NCBI GenBank assembly: GCA_009773455.1
Contig: WSXU01000008.1
Coordinates: 1 to 64,000 of the forward strand
DNA length: 64,000 nt
Origin: Bacteroidota bacterium
Lineage (GTDB): Bacteria; Bacteroidota; Bacteroidia; Bacteroidales; Lentimicrobiaceae
Direction of reading: 5' to 3'
The translations under genes and the position numbers were made by a program. Below are positions 1-60,174 of the stretch, piece after piece. The notes beneath the pieces are model-generated. The model was not told the DNA's origin, did no database searches, and saw only the letters and a list, made by a program, of their open reading frames with translations. Position 1 is the first letter of the stretch. The number at the start of each line of letters is the position of its first letter.

Positions 1-999
1 GTGCTGTTTCCACAGTCGTCGGTTGCAGTCCAGCTGCGGGTCAGGGTGTAATTGTTCGGACAGTTTCCGTCGGTGCGGACCTGACCATTATATACGATGG
101 TTACATTGCTGCTGCAGTTGTCTATGGCTGTTGGGGTACCTGGTGCAGGTACACCGCTGCATTCGCGGGTCATATTTGCAGGTACATAGGTAAAGACCGG
201 TCCTGTGACATCGGCAATGGCAAAAGTTGCACTGGTCGTTGCTGAGTTTCCACATTCGTCGGTTGCTGTCCATGTTACAAGGGCTGAGCCGGTTAAACCG
301 CAAAGGTCGCTCAGGCTCTGGAAGTTGTTGGTGATGGTAACCATGCCACAGAGATCACTGGCAGCTACATTGTTCAGCCAGTTTTCAAGAGCAGCGGTGT
401 TGCCGTTGCCGTCACATTCTACGGTAAGGTCAGAAGGTACGGTGGTGAATACCGGAGCATTGCTGTCAACGATGGTGAAAGTAGCTGAAGTTGTTTTAAT
501 ATTGCCACATCCATCATCTGCTGTGAAGACTACAGTTGCTGAACCGGTTAGTCCGCAGTTGTCGCTCAGTGATATAAAATTGTTGCTCCAGCTGATCTCT
601 CCGCAGTTATCGGTAGCAATTGCTCCGCCATTGGACGAAAGCCATGCATTCAGGTCAGCGCTGTTGCCCGATCCGTCACATTCAACGGTGAGGTTAGCTG
701 CAGGTACTGCAAGATGCGGTGCCTTGGTGTCTTTTACTGTAATCAACTGGCTGGCAACAGTGCTGTTTCCACAGTCGTCGGTTGCAGTCCAGCTGCGGGT
801 CAGGGTGTAATTGTTCGGGCAGTTTCCGTCAGTGCGGACCTGACCGTTATATACGATGGTTACATTGCTGCTGCAGTTATCTACGGCTGTTGGGGTACCT
901 GGAGCAGGCACACCGCTGCATTCGCGGGTGATATCTGCAGGTACAAAAGTGAATCCGGGAGCAACAGTATCTGAAACTATGATCGCATGTGAACACTGT
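1..999 (-). repeat. 759-bp higher-order coding repeat (second copy cut by window edge)
   Basis: The first about 215 bp of the window match 760-974 with few differences, an offset of 759 bp (253 codons). In protein order the units run A (about 999-760), B (about 745-500), B-like (about 485-245) and A again (about 230-1). A carries TRECSGVPAPGTPTA and TATDDCGNS; the B units carry VECDGxGN and LSDxCGLTGSA. The pattern suggests that more A-B-B blocks continue to the left of the window. Confidence 0.85.
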
Positions 1000-3900
1000 G
1001 AAGCATTTCCGATGTTATCAGAGATGGAATAAACCCTGGTAATGGTCTGTGAACAGCTGTTACCATCAGTGTTCTCACTGATCATGGTGAAACTTTCGGG
1101 ATTAATTCCGTTGCCGTCATCTACAGATCCACCTGCATTGATGAAAGCGGCATAGTCAGCAAACGGAGCCGGTACCTCAACTGTACAATTTACATTTACA
1201 GCCGGAGGACAATTGATTACCGGAGGTTCTGCATCAACAACAGTAACTGTCTGAATGCAGGATGAAGTATTCCCTGCGAGATCGGTGACAGTCCAGGTAA
1301 CATCGGTTGTTCCTGTATTGAAGGTCTCAGGCGCATCATTGGTAATATTTCCTACCTGGCAATTGTCAGAAACCTGGGGAAGTCCAAGATCAACATTTGA
1401 AGCGGTATTGCTTCCTGCATCAGGATTTACCACAATACCGGCCGGACATATGATTGATGGATTTGTTACATCATTTACTACTACAAGCTGAATGGAGGAA
1501 CTGCTGTTGCCGTTACCATCGTTAAAATTCCAGGTGATGGTATAGTTTCCCTGGGCGTTGTATGTTAAAGGATCTGAAGTAGTTCCTGTGATTGAACCTG
1601 CGCAGTTGTCTTCTGCTACCGGGGCAGCCACACTTGCTGAACATTCACCGGTTACATCGGCAAGAACCGGAGCAACCGGAGCGGTTACGTCGTCTACAAC
1701 TACAGTCTGCTGGGCAGTGCTGCTGTTGCCATTGCCATCATTAAAAGTCCAGTTAATGGTATAGCTTCCCTGAGCGTTGTATGTTAAAGGATCTGAAGTA
1801 GTTCCGGTGATGGAACCTGCGCAGTTGTCTTCTGCTACCGGGGCAGCTACACTTGCTGAACATTCACCGGTTACATCGGCAAGAACCGGAGCAACAGGAG
1901 CGGTTACGTCGTCTACAATGACAGTCTGCTGTGCAGTGCTGCTGTTGCCATTACCATCGTTAAAAATCCAGTTAATGGTATAGCTTCCCTGAGCATTGTA
2001 TGTTAAAGGATCTGAAGTTGTTCCTGTGATTGAACCTGTGCAGTTGTCTTCTGCTACCGGGGCAGTTACACCGGCAGAACATTCACCGGTTACATCGGCA
2101 AGAACCGGAGCAACAGGAGCGGTTACATCGTCTACAGTGACTGTCTGCTGTGCAGTGCTGCTGTTGCCATTGCCATCGTTAAAAGTCCAGGTGATGGTAT
2201 AGTTTCCCTGAGCGTTGTATGTTAAAGGATCTGAAGTAGTTCCGGTGATGGAACCAGCACAGTTGTCTTCTGCTACCGGGGCAGCTACACTTGCTGAACA
2301 TTCACCGGTTACATCGGCAAGAACCGGAGCAACCGGAGCGGTTACGTCGTCTACAATTACAGACTGCTGGGCAGTGCTGCTGTTGCCATTACCATCATCA
2401 AAAATCCACGTGATGGTATAGTTACCCTGTGCATTATAGGATAAAGGATCAGAAGTGGTTCCTGTAATTGTACCTGAGCAGTTATCTGTGGCTGTAGGAG
2501 CTGATAAAACAGCTGCCAGACATTCACCTGTTATTTCAGGTAAAGTTGTAACATCAGGCACAGGAGCGAGGATGTCATTGATCGTAGCCACAGTGAATGA
2601 TTGGGTTAAAGTGCAATCACTATCATCTGTAATCACTACCTGATAATTTCCGGCTACAATATTCTGGAGATCCTCATCATTGCTTGAATAACCATTCGGA
2701 CCCGTCCAGCTGTATGTGAAAGGAGCTGTTCCTCCGTCTGTGGTGATGTTAATTGAACCATCAGGGGTGCTCTGGCATGAATTATTCCCTGTAATACCGC
2801 TGACCGATAATCCTTCAGCGACAGTTATGGTCATTTCATCCGTAGATGAACATCCGTTTGTACCACTTACGGTTAAGGTATAAGTAAAAGTACCACTGTT
2901 TACCGGGGTGAATACAGGATTGGAAATGTCAGGATTACTCAGACCTGAAGCAGGACTCCATGAATAGGACAATGGTTCGCCCGATCCGGATGCTGAAGCC
3001 GAGCCCTGAAGCTGAAATGTTCCACATAATCCGATGGAAGCATCAGCACCTGCATTAACTGCTGATGGCACAGGCATTACAATTACGGTAGCTGTGGCAA
3101 CACCGGTGCAACCATTCAAAGCTGTTCCGGTTACGGTGTATGAAGAATTGGACACCGGAGAAACTGAAATTGACGAAGAAACGGCTCCACCCGGATTCCA
3201 TACATAGTTGTCGGCTCCGGAAGCAACCAGTGTAGTTTCAGTACCACGGCAAATCTCTGTTTCTGTCGGGCTAACCTGTACCTCAGGAGATGGTTTTACA
3301 GTCACCACAACCTGATCTGTTGAAGAACACTGACCGGAAGCATTGGTTACGGTAAGGGTATAAGTGGTTGTGACATCCGGGCTGGCAATCGGATTGGCTA
3401 TGCCTGCATTGTTAAGGCCTGTTGCCGGACTCCATGAATAGAGCACACCGCCTGAACCGTTCAACTGAGTGGTTAATCCTGAACAAATGGCAACATCGGC
3501 TCCGGCATTTGCAACCAGCGGTGTTGGGCTGCCAATGGTAGCAGATGCAGAAGCCGGATCATTGCAGCTTTCGGGGTCACGGACCAATATAGTATAATTC
3601 CCGGCTGAAAGTCCTGTGAAGGTGTTGGATGTCTGCCAGTTGTTTCCGTTATTCCTTGAATATTCATAACTGCCGCTGCCACCGGTAGCATTTACAGTGA
3701 TTACTCCGTTGTTCTGGCCATTGCACTGGACATTTTGTGCTGTAACAGAGGCTATGGTCAACTGCTCGTATATATTGATCACTTTTTCTACATAAACAAT
3801 GTTTTCATCACAGGGACAGGAGTTTCTGACCCTGACGATGAAGGTTTCTCCATTGTCAGCCAGTCCGTCACTTACAGCATAGTAAGGGATTACATAAGAG

Positions 3901-5138
3901 GCCTGTCCGGCAGGAATGGTCACCTGGGCCGGGAAAGGCTGTCCGTCCGTGGTCAGAATATCAGAACCGTTAACGGCTGACCCTGAGATCAGGATATCAA
4001 CTGTATAATCCTGGGTGAGATCTGTTGTCTGGCGGGTGATGGTGAGGCTGTTATTGAGGCAACCTTCAAAAATATTGTTGTTGTTCGGAATGTTGTTACC
4101 GATCTGGTTTAATGCAATCTGCTCTGATGAGAAGCTGTTTCCTTCAAGGAAAATACCCGAATCCCATTTACGGTCGGATACATCTGCGATGGCAAGTTTA
4201 ATATGATAGGTCTGACAAGGTGTTACCTGGTGAAATGCAGTGAGAACAACGGTACATCCGTCGTATTCCATATAAATGCCACCGCCGTTACCACCACTGC
4301 TGGTTGTACCGTCACCGTTATCTATATAATAAGCGGCATTCTGTGCCGGGCAATTCGGGTTGGGACCCCAGTTCCTGTTATGACTGGATGGTGAATACCT
4401 GCCCTGTGCATGTATATTATTGATTGTAACCGGCGTAACACCGTCGGGCAGTTTGGCGATATTCTTGCCGGTCAGACCAGGGTCGTTTGTTATACCGGGG
4501 CCTGATAACAGGAATGCAAAAACATCATTAAACTGTGAACAGGTCCATTCAAGATATTCTTCTGAAGCAAAAACATACCGGAACTCGACTACATTGCCAG
4601 CGGGTACAAAATCGAATTCAAGTACTGCTGCATCATAGGTATTGTAACCTGCAATAGAAGTGAGGTCTGCATCACCCGAAGTGCCGACTTCCCTGGTCGT
4701 GCTGTAACTTTCATTGGGTCCTTCTGCATCGGCTATATATCCGGTTGATAAAATAAGTCCTTCTTCAATGGGAAAATTGGAGTTCCCCCTGTTGAAATAA
4801 CCCAGCCCGCGCTGTTCAGGATTGGAATTGTTCCAAAGCCCGGCATAGGTTACATTTGAAGCCTGCAGGCAGCCCTGAACCAGGAGATTCTGCACCAGAC
4901 CAGCTGCATTATATGCTGCGTATGTGCTGTTTTCATTTACTGCAATGGATCCGGATGGAGCCATTGGTGCAACACCGCCCTGTGCTTCTTTAAGACCTGG
5001 CTTTTTTACTTCAGGAGTCCTTTCAGGAAGGATATCATGATTGGTTCCCAACTGGGCTTTAACACCGGCAACTGCTATAATTGCCAAAAAAGCCGTAAGG
5101 ATAAACCTGGCTCTGATGCTCACAGTAATTGTTTTCAT
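1..5138 (-). CDS. Giant secreted choice-of-anchor L / PKD / HYR repeat protein, 3' end outside window
   Basis: The frame is open from an ATG at 5138 to the window edge, giving 1,712 residues without a stop, so the C-terminus is missing. Residues 1-28 form a signal peptide ending VKA before Gln29. Residues about 75-335 match the choice-of-anchor L domain (FASEEY motif, then an IADVSDRKWDSG segment). About 340-455 is a Calx-beta-like segment, about 460-540 a SprB-like repeat (NGVITVNATGGSG), about 540-830 PKD/SprB-type repeats (VNAGADASI, YSWSPASGL), about 830-1215 near-identical 73-residue units (PVLADVTGECSA, ITWTFNDGNGN), and about 1215-1712 HYR-like units with TATDDCGNS motifs. Proteins of this build in Bacteroidota are usually exported by T9SS and act as adhesins or gliding-type surface proteins; the sorting domain would lie outside the window, so that role is inference. 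It is transcribed away from the rluB-like gene. Confidence 0.9.
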   Translation of the reverse strand, partial: MKTITVSIRARFILTAFLAIIAVAGVKAQLGTNHDILPERTPEVKKPGLKEAQGGVAPMAPSGSIAVNENSTYAAYNAAGLVQNLLVQGCLQASNVTYAGLWNNSNPEQRGLGYFNRGNSNFPIEEGLILSTGYIADAEGPNESYSTTREVGTSGDADLTSIAGYNTYDAAVLEFDFVPAGNVVEFRYVFASEEYLEWTCSQFNDVFAFLLSGPGITNDPGLTGKNIAKLPDGVTPVTINNIHAQGRYSPSSHNRNWGPNPNCPAQNAAYYIDNGDGTTSSGGNGGGIYMEYDGCTVVLTAFHQVTPCQTYHIKLAIADVSDRKWDSGIFLEGNSFSSEQIALNQIGNNIPNNNNIFEGCLNNSLTITRQTTDLTQDYTVDILISGSAVNGSDILTTDGQPFPAQVTIPAGQASYVIPYYAVSDGLADNGETFIVRVRNSCPCDENIVYVEKVINIYEQLTIASVTAQNVQCNGQNNGVITVNATGGSGSYEYSRNNGNNWQTSNTFTGLSAGNYTILVRDPESCNDPASASATIGSPTPLVANAGADVAICSGLTTQLNGSGGVLYSWSPATGLNNAGIANPIASPDVTTTYTLTVTNASGQCSSTDQVVVTVKPSPEVQVSPTETEICRGTETTLVASGADNYVWNPGGAVSSSISVSPVSNSSYTVTGTALNGCTGVATATVIVMPVPSAVNAGADASIGLCGTFQLQGSASASGSGEPLSYSWSPASGLSNPDISNPVFTPVNSGTFTYTLTVSGTNGCSSTDEMTITVAEGLSVSGITGNNSCQSTPDGSINITTDGGTAPFTYSWTGPNGYSSNDEDLQNIVAGNYQVVITDDSDCTLTQSFTVATINDILAPVPDVTTLPEITGECLAAVLSAPTATDNCSGTITGTTSDPLSYNAQGNYTITWIFDDGNGNSSTAQQSVIVDDVTAPVAPVLADVTGECSASVAAPVAEDNCAGSITGTTSDPLTYNAQGNYTITWTFNDGNGNSSTAQQTVTVDDVTAPVAPVLADVTGECSAGVTAPVAEDNCTGSITGTTSDPLTYNAQGSYTINWIFNDGNGNSSTAQQTVIVDDVTAPVAPVLADVTGECSASVAAPVAEDNCAGSITGTTSDPLTYNAQGSYTINWTFNDGNGNSSTAQQTVVVDDVTAPVAPVLADVTGECSASVAAPVAEDNCAGSITGTTSDPLTYNAQGNYTITWNFNDGNGNSSSSIQLVVVNDVTNPSIICPAGIVVNPDAGSNTASNVDLGLPQVSDNCQVGNITNDAPETFNTGTTDVTWTVTDLAGNTSSCIQTVTVVDAEPPVINCPPAVNVNCTVEVPAPFADYAAFINAGGSVDDGNGINPESFTMISENTDGNSCSQTITRVYSISDNIGNASQCSHAIIVSDTVAPGFTFVPADITRECSGVPAPGTPTAVDNCSSNVTIVYNGQVRTDGNCPNNYTLTRSWTATDDCGNSTVASQLITVKDTKAPHLAVPAANLTVECDGSGNSADLNAWLSSNGGAIATDNCGEISWSNNFISLSDNCGLTGSATVVFTADDGCGNIKTTSATFTIVDSNAPVFTTVPSDLTVECDGNGNTAALENWLNNVAASDLCGMVTITNNFQSLSDLCGLTGSALVTWTATDECGNSATTSATFAIADVTGPVFTYVPANMTRECSGVPAPGTPTAIDNCSSNVTIVYNGQVRTDGNCPNNYTLTRSWTATDDCGNS
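1500..2560 (-). repeat. 219-bp tandem coding repeats, about five units
   Basis: Inside the giant surface gene, the same segment recurs at 1558, 1777, 1996 and 2215, exactly 219 bp (73 codons) apart, with a divergent copy starting near 2434. The four inner copies differ by only a few bases. Each encodes one Ig-like unit with the order DDVTAPVAPVLADVTGECS, AEDNCAG, TTSDPLTYNAQGNYT, ITWTFNDGNGN. Near-identity at the DNA level points to recent expansion or ongoing homogenisation. Confidence 0.95.
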
Positions 5139-5587
5139 AACTTTATATTTAACTATCAATTTGTTTTCCGTTTTTCTGCCGGGCGGCAGTAAAATTTTCC
5201 ACTTCTCTGCAATCTCACTTATGCTTCTTCCCCCGAATTAGCTTAAGAAACAAGAACTTTACAAATCAAGCCTTTTCAAGATTTCAATACCGCTGAAACT
5301 GATTCTTTGATATTGCAGGCTAATTGCATAATGACAAGGAAAATATCGATACAAATTTATAGCGGTATGGAGGGGAGCGCAATACGGTTTAATACCCCTT
5401 TTGCTTCGGAACCACTTGATATCAGATAGGTAGGATTACCCACCAATAAGTATTTATACTCATTCGTGGATGATTATCTTCATATGTCTGTCTAATAATT
5501 ATATATTACTCCCCTATATGTATGATATGAAACAAAAAAAAACTGCCTTTCAGCAGTTTTACTTGTATTCCTGAGTTATTTTCAATT
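5139..5587. other. Intergenic region between the giant surface gene and the rluB-like gene
   Basis: An AT-rich stretch of 449 bp. It must hold the promoter of the giant gene (minus strand), but I see no clear TAnnTTTG element with a -33 partner. A short GC-rich hairpin (CTGCC/GGCAG, 5176-5189) lies in the presumed leader. The rluB-like terminator is at its right end. No convincing small gene is seen. Confidence 0.6.
5530..5560 (-). terminator. Rho-independent terminator of the rluB-like gene
   Basis: Read on the minus strand, AAAACTGC and GCAGTTTT form a perfect 8-bp stem (5560-5553 with 5546-5539) around a 6-nt loop, followed by a run of T. It lies 28 bp after the stop of the rluB-like gene. 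Confidence 0.8.
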
Positions 5588-7429
5588 TCAGATCATCATC
5601 ATCATATTGATTTCATTCTGATCCAGAAAACGCCACCTTCCCCTGGGAAGATCCTTTTTTGTAAGGTTGGCAAATGCAACACGGTCGAGCTTAACTATTT
5701 CGTATTCAAGTGCTTCGAAAAGCCGCCTGACTACCCTGTTTTTCCCGGAATGGATGACCACACCAATGCTTTTCTTATCATTGGCTGTTCCGGTGTAGGC
5801 TATCTCATCCACCGCCATCAGACCGTCCTCAAGTTCTACACCTTCCGAGAGTTGAATCATATCGGCCTTGGAGAGCGCTTTGTCCAGTTCAACATGATAC
5901 ACTTTCCGCACCTTGTGACCCGGATGGGTGAGTTTTTTGGCCATTTCTCCATCGTTGGTGAACAGCAGTAACCCTGATGTATTCCGGTCGAGACGTCCGA
6001 CAGGGTAAACCCTCTCCCGGCAGGCATCTTTAATCAGCATCATCACCGTATTTCTTTCCTGTGGATCATCCACCGTGGTGATGTAACCTTTGGGCTTGTT
6101 CAGCAACAGGTAAACCTTCTTTTCAATATTGAGGGTTTCACCTCCAAACTGTACCTTATCTTCCCGCGTAACTTTGGTGCCCAGTTCTGTCACTATTTTA
6201 CCGTTGACGGATACTGCTCCTGATTCTATCAGGGTATCAGCCTCCCTGCGTGAGCATATGCCGGAATTCGAAATATATTTATTCAGACGGATGGTTCCAT
6301 CGTTGGCATAACCCTTTTTACCTCCCTGTTTTTTAGGTTCGGGTGATTTATCACGACTGAAGGTGCCAGACCTGCGGGGTTCATCCTTATCGGCAAACCT
6401 GCTTTTGGGCCTGATATCACCTTCGTCTGTCTTTATCCTGGTCCTGGGTTCAGAGGGGGTTCTTTCCGAAAATTTGCTGGCATGTGTCCTGGCAGGCTTA
6501 TCCTCCCTGCCGCCTCTGTATGAGCCGGATGACCCTGTTTCCCTCTCCTTTTCATCTGCAGGCTTTCTGCCCTTGTATGCACGGTCACCGGCGGGTTTAT
6601 TGTCCGAAAAGCGCCTTTCGCGCGGTGCTCCGGACTCTTCGCTGCGCTTCCATGGCCGTTCAGGTTTCTCATCCCTGCTTCCCTTATAGGTGCGCGGTGA
6701 ATCAGTACTTCCCGGAGAATCATCGGTTGCTCTGCGGCTTTTATATGGGCGATCGCCCGATGGTTTGTCCGAATATCTCCTTTCCCTGGGGGCTCCGGAT
6801 TCATCATCGCGTTTCCAGGGGCGGGCTGGTTTATCGTCACGGTTGCTTCGGTAGGTTCCCGCTGAATCTTTTCCCTCCGGGGATTCTCCGGATGGTCTGC
6901 GGCTTTTATATGGACGGTCATCCGATGGTTTGCTGCCGGCATAGCGTTTTTCCCGTGGAGCACCTGAATTTTCATCACGTTTCCAGGGACCGGATGGTTT
7001 GTCTTCCAGGTTACCTTTGTAAGGCCTGGGCTTATAAGTTCCTTCTTCCCTTCCTTCAACAGGTCTGCGGCTTTTATACGGACGATCTCCTTCCTGTTTG
7101 TTCTCTGTAAAGCGTCTTTCCCTGGGTGCACCGGATGTTTCATCGCGTTTCCATGGCGCGGAAGGTTTCTCATCCCTTTTCCCCCTGTATGATGGCCGCG
7201 GGGTATCGGAACTTTCTGCTTTCCCGTAAGGTTTCCGGCCTTTAAAGGGCCTGTCAGCTCCCGAAGGAGTTCCTGCTTCGCTTTCTTTTGGTTTGTAACT
7301 ACGGGGGGCCCTTTCTGATGGTTTCCCATCCGGCCTGCCCTTACCGGCGCGCCTTTTATCGGGGGCTCCATCGGGCTTTCTTCTTTTCTCCGGACTTCCT
7401 TCTCCGGTGAATTTTCTCATTGCATTCAT
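5588..7429 (-). CDS. rluB: RluB-family 23S rRNA pseudouridine synthase with long basic repeat extension
   Basis: The C-terminal part is a complete RsuA/RluB-type pseudouridine synthase: an S4 RNA-binding domain at about 379-430 (RLNKYISNSGICSRREAD), the synthase domain from about 438, and the catalytic Asp481 in GRLDRNTSGLLLF. Such enzymes isomerise uridine in rRNA (RluB: the peptidyl transferase region of 23S rRNA). About 375 residues precede this and are low-complexity and rich in K, R, P, S, G, D and E, with 4.5 repeats of about 56 residues built on DRPYKSRRP, RDEKPxxPWKRDE and SGAPRERR. Bacteroidota RluB homologues often carry basic N-terminal extensions; the number and regularity here are notable. 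The protein ends in an odd NMMMMI tail. A second in-frame Met at residue 4 is an alternative start. RluB and related enzymes cannot be told apart with certainty by eye. Confidence 0.88.
   Translation of the reverse strand: MNAMRKFTGEGSPEKRRKPDGAPDKRRAGKGRPDGKPSERAPRSYKPKESEAGTPSGADRPFKGRKPYGKAESSDTPRPSYRGKRDEKPSAPWKRDETSGAPRERRFTENKQEGDRPYKSRRPVEGREEGTYKPRPYKGNLEDKPSGPWKRDENSGAPREKRYAGSKPSDDRPYKSRRPSGESPEGKDSAGTYRSNRDDKPARPWKRDDESGAPRERRYSDKPSGDRPYKSRRATDDSPGSTDSPRTYKGSRDEKPERPWKRSEESGAPRERRFSDNKPAGDRAYKGRKPADEKERETGSSGSYRGGREDKPARTHASKFSERTPSEPRTRIKTDEGDIRPKSRFADKDEPRRSGTFSRDKSPEPKKQGGKKGYANDGTIRLNKYISNSGICSRREADTLIESGAVSVNGKIVTELGTKVTREDKVQFGGETLNIEKKVYLLLNKPKGYITTVDDPQERNTVMMLIKDACRERVYPVGRLDRNTSGLLLFTNDGEMAKKLTHPGHKVRKVYHVELDKALSKADMIQLSEGVELEDGLMAVDEIAYTGTANDKKSIGVVIHSGKNRVVRRLFEALEYEIVKLDRVAFANLTKKDLPRGRWRFLDQNEINMMMMI
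6490..7255 (-). repeat. About 170-bp tandem coding repeats in the rluB-like gene
   Basis: Encodes residues about 59-315 of the pseudouridine synthase. Four full units and one partial unit begin near residues 59, 114, 171, 225 and 281. Each has the order DRPYKSRRP, a variable acidic or serine-rich spacer, KPxRPWKR, SGAPRERR. Spacer lengths differ, so the units are not exact DNA copies, unlike the 219-bp repeats in the neighbouring surface gene. Confidence 0.9.
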
Positions 7430-13790: not shown

Positions 13791-13927
13791 GCATTGTCTA
13801 TTTCGGATTTCAGATTTCGGATTTCAGATTTCGGATTGCGCTTATTATAAGCATATTAGATGATTGGAGGCATACGTTATTCCATTATTCCATCATTCCA
13901 TTATTCCATTATTCCAAAAAATCCCCT

Positions 13928-14280: not shown

Positions 14281-15885
14281 ATGAAAACCCGGATTCGGAA
14301 TAATATTCATAAAGCAACCCGTTTTATATTTATTATCCCTTTGCTGGTTCTGGTGATAAACATTTCTACAAAAGCTCAAAGAGTTGATTATAAGTGGATT
14401 TGTTCTGTTGATAGCTCATTCAATATTGTTTCAATAATTGATAAAGAAGATAACCTTATTGTTGCCTCCAAGAGCGGCAATATGAAGAAATTTGACCTTG
14501 ATGGAAATCCGATATGGTCAATTGCTGACACATTACAGGATATAGTTGGGATTGCTGTTGATAATGAAAATAACTTTTACATTACTGGTACCAACACCAG
14601 ATTCACTTACCAGGGCCAGTTTAATTTCACATTAGTCTCATTTGTCTATATCGCCAAATACGACAAATCAGGTAATAAAATCTGGATATCGAAAACCAAC
14701 ACTCAAACACTGGTCAATGATTCACCGGGAAACTTTTCAACATCCATAACCTGTGACCTGAATAACGCCATATACATTACTGGAAGTTATACCAATTCTA
14801 TTGAATTTGACAATTATCAATTGACTGATAATAACAGCTCAGCAATTTTTATCGCGAAGTATGACACAGCAGGAACTGCCATTTGGGCCCGGACTATTTC
14901 CGGAACCAATCAAGGTGATGAACTGACTTATGGACAAGGCAATGAAATTGTTATTGACCAGAATGATGATCTTTATATTACCGGGAGATTTCGCGGACCT
15001 TTCAATTTCGGAGGTACATATTTTCCATGTCTTGGCACCGGCGATATTTTCCTTACAAAACTTGATAGCAGCGGATTATTTCTTAATACCAAAACCATTG
15101 GCGGTGATTTACTTGATGGAGGTTTGAGATTGGTTACCGATCAGAACAATGATATTATATTGCTTGCAAAATTTAGTGGGGAGATTTACATAAACGGGAT
15201 TTTATATCAGGCAATCAATAACCAGAGCAATGCAATTATAATTAAACTTGTTAATGATAGCATTGTCTGGGCTACCCAGATAGGCGAATCAACCGGAATA
15301 GACGGGGATATTGTTTCGGATATCTGTGTAGATAAAGATCAAAACATTATTTATACAGGTGCAATAGCAAATCCTTATCCTTTTGATCCGATGATATATA
15401 AAATTAACAGCTCGGGAGAAATTGAAAATATATATTTCATGGCTGAAAGTTTGGCTGATAATTTTGGTTTTGGAACCTCAATCGTTTCCGATTCATCAGG
15501 CACCATTTATCTGGCTGGCTTCATCAATAATGCGGCATATTTCGGTGACAGTTTGTTATTGGTTCCTTCCGGCCAATCCTGTCAATCTTTTATCGGAGAA
15601 ATTGATATTAACAACATTATTTACAGTATTTCATCTCACGAAAATGTTATATCAATGCAGGTTTCCCCGACTATTAACCATGGTGATTTTACCATATTTT
15701 CCCAAACTGGAAATATAGAAGGCGGTGAATTATTGATGTATAATCTGTCGGGACAGCTTGTAAAGCAATTCAAAATCAATGCGAACAAATCAGTCATTCA
15801 TATCAATGAATTGAATTCGGGAATTTATATCGGAAAACTATTTAAGGCCGGTTTTAGGGGATCATTTAAAATCGTTAAATACTAA
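14281..15885 (+). CDS. T9SS-secreted SBBP beta-propeller repeat protein
   Basis: The 534-residue protein has a signal peptide at about 15-32 ending in TKAQ. The body consists of repeated blades of the SBBP type, with cores such as VDNENNFYITGT, CDLNNAIYITGSY and IDQNDDLYITGRF, each followed by a segment where a quantity is compared with a moving cargo (IAKYDxxGTxIWA). The last about 75 residues form a type A T9SS sorting domain (SPTINHGDFTI, LLMYNLSGQLVKQ, SGIYIGKLF). It is expected to be exported across the outer membrane. The ligand is unknown. The gene is visibly AT-richer than its neighbours, which may mean later acquisition or relaxed codon use. It seems monocistronic. Confidence 0.88.
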   Translation: MKTRIRNNIHKATRFIFIIPLLVLVINISTKAQRVDYKWICSVDSSFNIVSIIDKEDNLIVASKSGNMKKFDLDGNPIWSIADTLQDIVGIAVDNENNFYITGTNTRFTYQGQFNFTLVSFVYIAKYDKSGNKIWISKTNTQTLVNDSPGNFSTSITCDLNNAIYITGSYTNSIEFDNYQLTDNNSSAIFIAKYDTAGTAIWARTISGTNQGDELTYGQGNEIVIDQNDDLYITGRFRGPFNFGGTYFPCLGTGDIFLTKLDSSGLFLNTKTIGGDLLDGGLRLVTDQNNDIILLAKFSGEIYINGILYQAINNQSNAIIIKLVNDSIVWATQIGESTGIDGDIVSDICVDKDQNIIYTGAIANPYPFDPMIYKINSSGEIENIYFMAESLADNFGFGTSIVSDSSGTIYLAGFINNAAYFGDSLLLVPSGQSCQSFIGEIDINNIIYSISSHENVISMQVSPTINHGDFTIFSQTGNIEGGELLMYNLSGQLVKQFKINANKSVIHINELNSGIYIGKLFKAGFRGSFKIVKY

Positions 15886-16012: not shown

Positions 16013-16073
16013 TTCAAAATTCAATATCCCAACATTCCAACATTCCAACATCCCAATATCCCAAAAATTATCC

Positions 16074-16572: not shown

Positions 16573-16590
16573 GTCTGCCGACAGGCAGAC
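16573..16590 (+). terminator. Hairpin between fur and the small exported protein
   Basis: GTCTGCC-GACA-GGCAGAC forms a perfect 7-bp stem followed by T-rich sequence of TTTTAACTTTTAAC type. It could end or attenuate fur transcription before the next gene. The same sequence may also be an intergenic repeat. Confidence 0.5.
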
Positions 16591-16624
16591 TTTTAACTTT
16601 TAACTTTTTACTTTTTACTTAACA

Positions 16625-21204: not shown

Positions 21205-21276
21205 AATCTCCCCTTGTCTCCAGTTCCCCTTGTCCCCAACTCTCCTTGTCTCCCTTCCCCTTGTCTCCCTCTATCT
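21205..21276. repeat. Low-complexity CCTTGTCTCC-type tract
   Basis: Short imperfect units of CCCCTTGTCTCC fill the gap between the AsmA-like gene and the kinase. The reverse complement (GGGGACAAGGGG) recurs near 59640-59672, also between genes. Confidence 0.7.
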
Positions 21277-43214: not shown

Positions 43215-43539
43215 GGCTTGATTCCAATGCAGGGCGTGAATGAGGGTGAGTTATAAGTTATAAGCTCAAAGTAAAAAGTTCAAAGCTCAAAGTTTAAAGC
43301 TCAACCAACTTTGGATGGTTCAAAGCTCAAAGTAAAAAGTTTACCCGCCTTTCGAGGGTTCAAAGTTTACCACCTTCGGCAGACTATAAGTCTGAACTGC
43401 TAAGTACAGAGTTGTTCTCCATTTATTCGTCATTTTTACCCCGGGCCCGCCTGTCAAAGCATTCGTGCAGGCGCAGTCGAAGTGCGTCATTCGTCACTAC
43501 ATTTCACTCGCCCGTTTCAAAACTAAAAACTCAAATTTC
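43215..43539. other. Repetitive intergenic region between the FRG gene and the ABC permease gene
   Basis: 325 bp made mainly of short imperfect units of AAGCTCAAAGTAAAAAGTTC type (43255-43345). A divergent relative of the GCGTAGTCGA stem-loop lies at about 43466-43486. The permease terminator, if any, is not clear. No gene is seen. Confidence 0.7.
43255..43345. repeat. AAAGCTCAAAGT low-complexity tract
   Basis: At least five imperfect units of 10-20 bp built from AGCTCAAAGT and AAAAAGTT. A reverse-complement relative (AACTTTTAACTTTTTAC) is at 16590-16620 between fur and the small exported gene. Confidence 0.7.
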
Positions 43540-59566: not shown

Positions 59567-59898
59567 TGGCCATGAGTGATTGGGATGGGCAAATTTAAGG
59601 AAAACCCTGCGATTGCGGATTGCGGATTTGAAGAAAGAGACCCGGGGACAAGGGGAAATGGGGACTCGGGGAAACTTCAGATTGTGGATTGTGGATTTCT
59701 GATTCAGGAATTTGAATCGAAACACAAAGTAGTTTCTTACTCCTTAACCGCCATAGGCGGGCAAGCTCCTTATTGCCAAATGCATACTGAATAGTGCCGA
59801 CTTCCGACATCTGACATCTGACTTCTAACCTCTGACATCTGACTTCCAAAATAGACTTAACTTCATTTCACATATCTTTACCTCACAAAATAAACCAG
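59567..59898. other. Repetitive intergenic region between the PLP-enzyme and S4 genes
   Basis: 332 bp between divergent genes. Holds the PLP-enzyme promoter, low-complexity tracts (GATTGCGGATT and GGGGACAAGGGG types at about 59608-59700, TCTGACATCTGA type at about 59805-59850) and a seven-of-eight -7 match TATCTTTA (59872-59879) before the S4 gene. Confidence 0.65.
59590..59597 (-). promoter_or_regulatory. Promoter -7 element of the PLP-enzyme gene
   Basis: TAAATTTG on the minus strand fits TAnnTTTG. It lies inside the extended frame, so it supports the ATG at 59566. Confidence 0.55.
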
Positions 59899-60126: not shown

Positions 60127-60141
60127 CCGTTCTTCCCTGTT

Positions 60142-60174
60142 TTGTTAATTCTTCACTGATTATTGTTATTTTTG
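60142..60174 (+). promoter_or_regulatory. Possible promoter of the BASS transporter gene
   Basis: TTG at 60142-60144, a 22-bp spacer, then TATTTTTG at 60167-60174, a fit to TAnnTTTG. Spacing is slightly long. Confidence 0.45.

Follow-up and report, generated by a model that had tools for sequence, protein, structure and literature searches.

T9SS cargoes of type B depend on cognate PorP/SprF-like shuttles, to which they are thought to stay bound, and it has been proposed that a porE-like gene is absent beside moving cargoes, whereas PorE links the static ones to the wall (the parts consulted of PMC12618676 and PMC9143113). For Flavobacterium johnsoniae SprF, a Cys-X-Cys tail is described as required for gliding (consulted part of PMC12635249). 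Proteins of the kind described here are already known, and the giant gene at the left edge of our window (64,000 bp, positions 1-64000 of the 204,603-bp contig C20) is a further example. In the literature searched, the phrase "choice-of-anchor L" was not found, and among the papers listed none was recognisable as dealing with this protein. The source genome, hereafter G000, is a 4.8-Mb draft of 159 contigs; the comparison covered 19 genomes of its genus, labelled Lentimicrobium-like on the strength of five named relatives, two called Lentimicrobium sp. and three Bacteroidales.

An open reading frame scan of the minus strand places an ATG at 5138 and a frame (3-5138) that stays open to the edge for 1,712 codons; with independent bases at 46.6% GC, an opening of this length in a given frame has a chance of about 1e-40. 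A TTG at 5159 is an in-frame alternative start. As the first-pass annotation had it, the open stretch of 5,138 bp is cut at the window edge, and it is cut there because the contig itself starts at window base 1. Window 3-5138 encodes the N-terminal part of a giant repeat-rich protein, probably held on the cell surface, the features of which are collected in Table 1.

Table 1. Features of the N-terminal half of the giant protein, in window coordinates
Feature	Position	Strand	Basis or remark
Giant protein, N-terminal part, 1,712 codons	3..5138	-	open to contig end
Putative signal peptide, residues 1-28	5055..5138	-	translation, judged by eye
Choice-of-anchor L domain, residues 61-345	4104..4958	-	NF038133
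Calx-beta-like beta-sandwich, residues 346-462	3753..4103	-	predicted structure and Foldseek; placement inferred
SprB repeat 1	3525..3764	-	PF13573
Three PKD-like domains	2811..3524	-	third: PF18911 and PF22352; first two: mutual similarity only
SprB repeat 2	2598..2810	-	PF13573, two stretches in all
Class A73 array of 73-residue HYR_4C-like units, five in all with a diverged first unit	1464..2552	-	
Single HYR domain	1227..1460	-	PF02494 at residues 1230-1307
First 253-residue block, complete, made up of the HYR-like units C1, C3 and C3	204..962	-	
Second 253-residue block, first 66 residues, cut by contig end	3..200	-	

Profile searches bore out the choice-of-anchor L domain and the PKD/SprB modules that had been read from the letters: NF038133 scored 232 bits against a cut-off of 27, and the matches in the window part of the gene comprised PF13573 (two stretches), PKD_4, HYR_4C (PF23237, seven stretches) and HYR (PF02494). 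These searches recognised no known adhesive domain in the giant protein; Ig-like repeat domains are present. The 253-residue blocks of HYR-like units are real as well, with a spacing of 759 bp and 94% identity over 194 nt, the window holding only one whole copy and 66 residues of the next. The structural model of the head was poor (mean pLDDT 49.5) and better in its Calx-like part (blocks at pLDDT 68-88, one block at 47); its interpretation was limited to the last ~120 residues, which probably form a Calx-beta-like sandwich, as suggested by the Foldseek match of this part to NCX1 CBD1 (2dpk, TMt 0.65; domain placement inferred). The Epf adhesin domain, which was the top-ranked Foldseek match of the head, as well as HAP2 and pilus chaperones, was dropped for low TM-scores. 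PDB sequence searches gave no match at E 0.01 with the head profile and none at 0.001 with PorP; the C-terminal part matched a single entry, an RTX protein, weakly and within a Big_9-type stretch. A model of two A73 units (mean pLDDT 34) was left unused.

A counterpart of the cut gene was found at the right end of contig C98 (385,537 bp) of the same genome. In a DNA search at E 0.001, window 1-1500 matched two places in its own genome, itself and C98:385160-385536 (79%), and the latter match reaches the end of the contig. At the protein level, the 252/253-residue block gave 26 matches, with 65-100% identity at the C20 and C98 ends, 35-42% at other places in C20 (the giant gene itself) and at most 37% on other contigs. 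The right end of C98 carries a frame of 850 residues, open at the contig end and in the orientation that fits the C20 half, which encodes in order a partial block, a whole block, four HYR, two Big_9-type domains and a type B sorting domain (TIGR04131, 58.3 bits, cut-off 35; PF13585, 83.6, cut-off 27), followed by the stop. A porP/sprF gene lies directly downstream (TIGR03519, 266.9 bits, cut-off 90.55), and beyond it, in opposite orientation, stand tonB, vanZ, gcvH and a partial sprA, whose C-terminal region scores 792.9 bits against positions 1458-2318 of the profile. Of the T9SS machinery, the genome also encodes a GldM/PorM homologue (389.9 bits against 180). There is no exact overlap between the C98 and C20 ends, the junction lying outside the sequenced contigs. 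We nevertheless take the two halves as one gene with a repeat gap between them, because the genome G001 (4.5 Mb, two contigs) has an uninterrupted gene of 4,204 aa between the same sets of neighbours; the assignment as a type B cargo depends on this joining. The residues read in both halves amount to 2,562, and the smallest size would be ~2,690 if the block register is kept. The first-pass annotation had predicted a T9SS sorting domain beyond the edge and let its reading hang on it: one is present on C98 in the protein so extended, it is of type B, and porP/sprF adjoins it. The annotation was right about the kind of protein, and nothing that it had named as a refutation turned up.

The intact gene of G001 lies on a 3.1-Mb contig, flanked by the window's neighbours on one side and by porP, a porE-like gene, tonB, vanZ, gcvH and sprA on the other, the gene labels of C98 being carried over by likeness. 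In G018 a gene of 2,023 aa lies between the pseudouridine-synthase gene and porP. Of the loci fetched, these are the two with both flanks on one contig, and both have a single gene there. In the nine relatives compared, the last 240 residues of the pseudouridine synthase are 82-90% identical, and five further window neighbours keep their order next to the G001 gene, with identities of 65-90%, one being a universal-stress gene by profile and the other four presumably yraN, LD-carboxypeptidase, rubrerythrin and metG. Of the 18 loci fetched from relatives, 17 have the gene running into the contig end or stopping within 100 bases of it. The pseudouridine synthase (window 5588-7429) has a long, charged, repetitive N-terminal extension, and its length ranges from 360 to 613 aa in ten genomes. 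Short-period tandem repeats (7-40 bp) occur in the window at 13800-13916, 16015-16066, 16589-16620, 21209-21268, 43275-43365, 59799-59849 and 60130-60168. An open frame of 546 aa carries, at 15676-15879, a TIGR04183 T9SS sorting domain (37.1 bits against a cut-off of 23), and the genome has at least 150 TIGR04183 matches (150 of 228 candidates scored).

Heads and tails were compared as 21 sequences, with G001 as one row for both. Eleven of the 19 genus genomes have a head that reaches at least 58% identity, a count that leaves out weaker matches and a 69-residue fragment at 64% in G007; a tail reaching at least 55% is likewise present in 11 of the 19, again leaving out weaker matches. As far as each contig reaches, the head reads anchor L, Calx-like, SprB, PKD, PKD, PKD, SprB, the third PKD of G011 being of another type. 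The tail consists of six HYR, Big_9, Big_9b and the sorting domain in 10 of 11 cases; G000 has four HYR. In G018 (L137 8464-14535) the tail and the locus are kept with a different head that lacks choice-of-anchor L, the original head apparently having been replaced. The middle of the stalk holds A73 units in G000 (five), G012 (three) and G017 (one, partial), B79 units in G001 (30), G010 (16, on two contigs) and G018 (six), with lone or incomplete copies in G013, G005 and G016, and C-type or HYR units in others. Across the genus, the tail and mostly the head are kept, whereas the middle is swapped and re-amplified.

The 219-bp units at 1501-2487 are present in 4.5 copies with 90% matches. The 73-residue units had been called near-identical: the units stand, but units 2-5 share 85.4-94.1% of their DNA in pairwise comparison and unit 1 is more diverged. 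Synonymous differences are 0.17-0.32 among units 2-5 and 0.46-0.59 for unit 1; between the A73 units of G000 and those of G012 the median is 0.71. In the A73 tree, unit 1 of G000 pairs with the first unit of G017 (0.93) and the G012 units form their own group (1.00), the grouping within G000 units 2-5 being weakly supported. The tree and the synonymous differences together support an amplification or homogenisation of the A73 array within the lineage, which for units 2-5 took place once G012 had split off. The expansion postulated from the letters is thus upheld as lineage-specific turnover; calling it continuing was an overstatement for this copy, as the units differ at 17-32% of synonymous positions and the fresh duplication is found in another genome, G001. 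The gene there contains exact repeats of 533 bp and 467 bp, a sign of recent duplication not seen in the G000 copy. Among the B79 arrays the pattern of lineage-specific turnover is not uniform: synonymous differences within the genome have a median of 0.53 (minimum 0.00) in G001 and 0.42 in G010, whereas the units within G018 (median 0.72, minimum 0.04) are no closer than those between genomes (0.61-0.71). Matches of the G001 array to the Pfam families Toxin-deaminase, L_protein_N and DUF1416, and one PHROG match, were rejected as repeat-driven, no stretch passing alone.

The head of G000 is 80-81% identical to heads at another locus in G011 and G004 (L121 11724-14000 and L122 2-2104, respectively), beside genes that we take to be NarL-type regulators, and 58% identical to that of G017 at the same locus. 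The best tail matches in G011 and G004 are 40% and 35%, and the best PorP match is 49%. The idea that these two are the nearest relatives of G000 was dropped, G017 being as near or nearer by two marker proteins: it is closer by the C132-type PorP (91% vs 86%), and it is among the nearest by pseudouridine synthase (90%), a comparison that G011 and G004 fall outside. On these two marker proteins only, the sequences hint at head exchange between loci.

A PorP-like gene lies 3' of the tail in 11/11 loci, that of G017 being broken by N, and at every locus but that of G000 (10 of 11) it is followed by a porE-like gene. The porE-like genes of nine other loci are 52-78% identical to that of G001, the one tested for domains, which has OmpA, PD40 and TPR. 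A tblastn search revealed no porE-like remnant in the 1.4 kb between porP and tonB on C98 (L020 4522-5912), the best hit (E 0.25) lying elsewhere. Two porE-like genes exist elsewhere in G000, 43% and 40% identical to that of G001, in the paired operons of contig C132 (G000:C132:1-32773; L021, L022), which are adjacent and each comprise a giant type B cargo, a porP-like and a porE-like gene, the cargo open frames measuring 6,898 aa and, for the one truncated where the contig begins, 1,567 aa. At the C-terminus, a Cys-X-Cys motif is absent from all ten PorP-like proteins aligned (the broken one of G017 left out). Other PorP-like proteins of G000 have cysteines near the C-terminus, two each on C122 and C49 and one on C65. 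The C49 gene adjoins a gene whose type B domain stays below its cut-off, and the C122 gene stands directly before the GldJ homologue (G000:C122:40476-42989, L148), which makes it a possible gliding-track partner in the genus. This GldJ homologue scores 468.7 bits, just over the cut-off of 458.2; two of 14 control genomes match the profile, none of them over the cut-off. Cultured Lentimicrobium is not known to be motile. Three features of this locus are less expected, namely that its ends are kept while the middle is swapped, that the porE-like gene is missing, and that the G000 head is closer to heads at another locus than to that of G017. One could see in them a cassette that retains its tail for export and anchoring, with the stalk classes swapped, the head replaced (G018) or exchanged with a copy at another locus (G000) and porE lost (G000), a system that would change its reach and binding and whose G000 adhesin would be cut loose from the cell wall, a scenario that we regard as unlikely.

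We are confident that the giant protein is a fibrillar surface adhesin exported as a T9SS type B cargo, more likely static than gliding. Its domains, its two halves, the synteny and the repeat turnover are read from sequence; we infer export, anchoring, stalk, adhesion and the static rather than moving state. The signal peptide would direct Sec export and the C-terminal type B domain on C98 passage through the SprA translocon, encoded a few genes away. The product of the adjoining downstream gene, a PorP/SprF-like barrel, would collect the protein and keep it at the outer membrane, where the chain of HYR, PKD and SprB modules would act as a stalk projecting the choice-of-anchor L and Calx-beta-like head from the cell, variable in length and repeat class in its middle, with head and tail mostly kept. 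The adhesin would more likely be fixed than carried along a gliding track; we prefer the static reading because the PorP tails lack Cys-X-Cys, and leave room for gliding because a GldJ homologue is present in G000. A gliding adhesin like SprB would be moved by its SprF-like barrel on a GldJ/GldK track, pulling the cell. The SprB repeats, the type B sorting domain, the sprF-like neighbour and the GldM and GldJ homologues all fit such a role, and the missing porE-like gene at the G000 locus would, under the published proposal, be the pattern of a moving adhesin and count against a static one. However, the tail needed by F. johnsoniae SprF (consulted part of PMC12635249) is absent in 10/10 PorP-like proteins, a porE-like gene is present at 10/11 loci, and the PorP-like proteins of C122 and C49, with their C-terminal cysteines, look like better gliding candidates than that of the window locus; gliding is therefore decidedly unlikely in our judgement.

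That C20 carries the start of one adhesin gene and C98 the end of another would fit the lack of exact overlap between their ends, and G000 does have several repeat genes of giant size, with frames of 6,898 and 7,156 aa. Against this, the orientation fits, the repeat classes are common to both ends, the flanks are joined in G001 and G018, and a close copy of the block is on no other contig, which makes two genes very improbable. The repeat number and the break could also be assembly artefacts of a draft in 159 contigs, the real protein being much shorter and ordinary, and at 17/18 loci fetched from relatives the gene likewise runs into a contig end or stops within 100 bases of one. Yet the longest exact repeat in the window part of the gene is 74 bp, which usual read lengths should resolve, and the G001 gene is longer still (4,204 aa) on its 3.1-Mb contig; we thus give an artefact almost no credence.

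With the adhesin reading preferred, one genus presents the mostly fixed parts of a giant T9SS adhesin (head, sorting tail, shuttle) beside a turned-over stalk. Breaks in draft assemblies tend to fall inside genes of this sort or close to them, and gene size is thereby lost. In addition, the loci with and without porE would make the static-versus-moving proposal testable outside Flavobacterium.

Among known systems, fibrillar adhesins share with the window protein a variable tandem Ig-like stalk that links a head at the N-terminus to an anchor at the C-terminus, as far as the consulted part of PMC8286594 describes them; they differ from it in that no domain of proven adhesive function was recognised in the window protein. 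SprB-SprF of F. johnsoniae is alike in the giant size, the type B sorting domain and the sprF-like gene downstream (consulted parts of PMC9143113 and PMC12618676), and the SprB-repeat family PF13573 is over its cut-off in the window protein; in contrast, and with SprB compared by description, the PorP-like protein of the window locus is without Cys-X-Cys in its C-tail and a porE-like gene is the neighbour in relatives. F. johnsoniae Fjoh_3952/3951/3950 and Porphyromonas gingivalis PG1035-PorP-PorE, likened here by description and not by sequence, differ in that the protein at our locus is giant, with a choice-of-anchor L head and HYR arrays, and that the genome of the window has no porE-like gene at this locus. 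What these two systems have in common with our locus is the sorting-domain family, the porP/sprF gene directly downstream and, at 10/11 genus loci, the porE-like gene that comes next.
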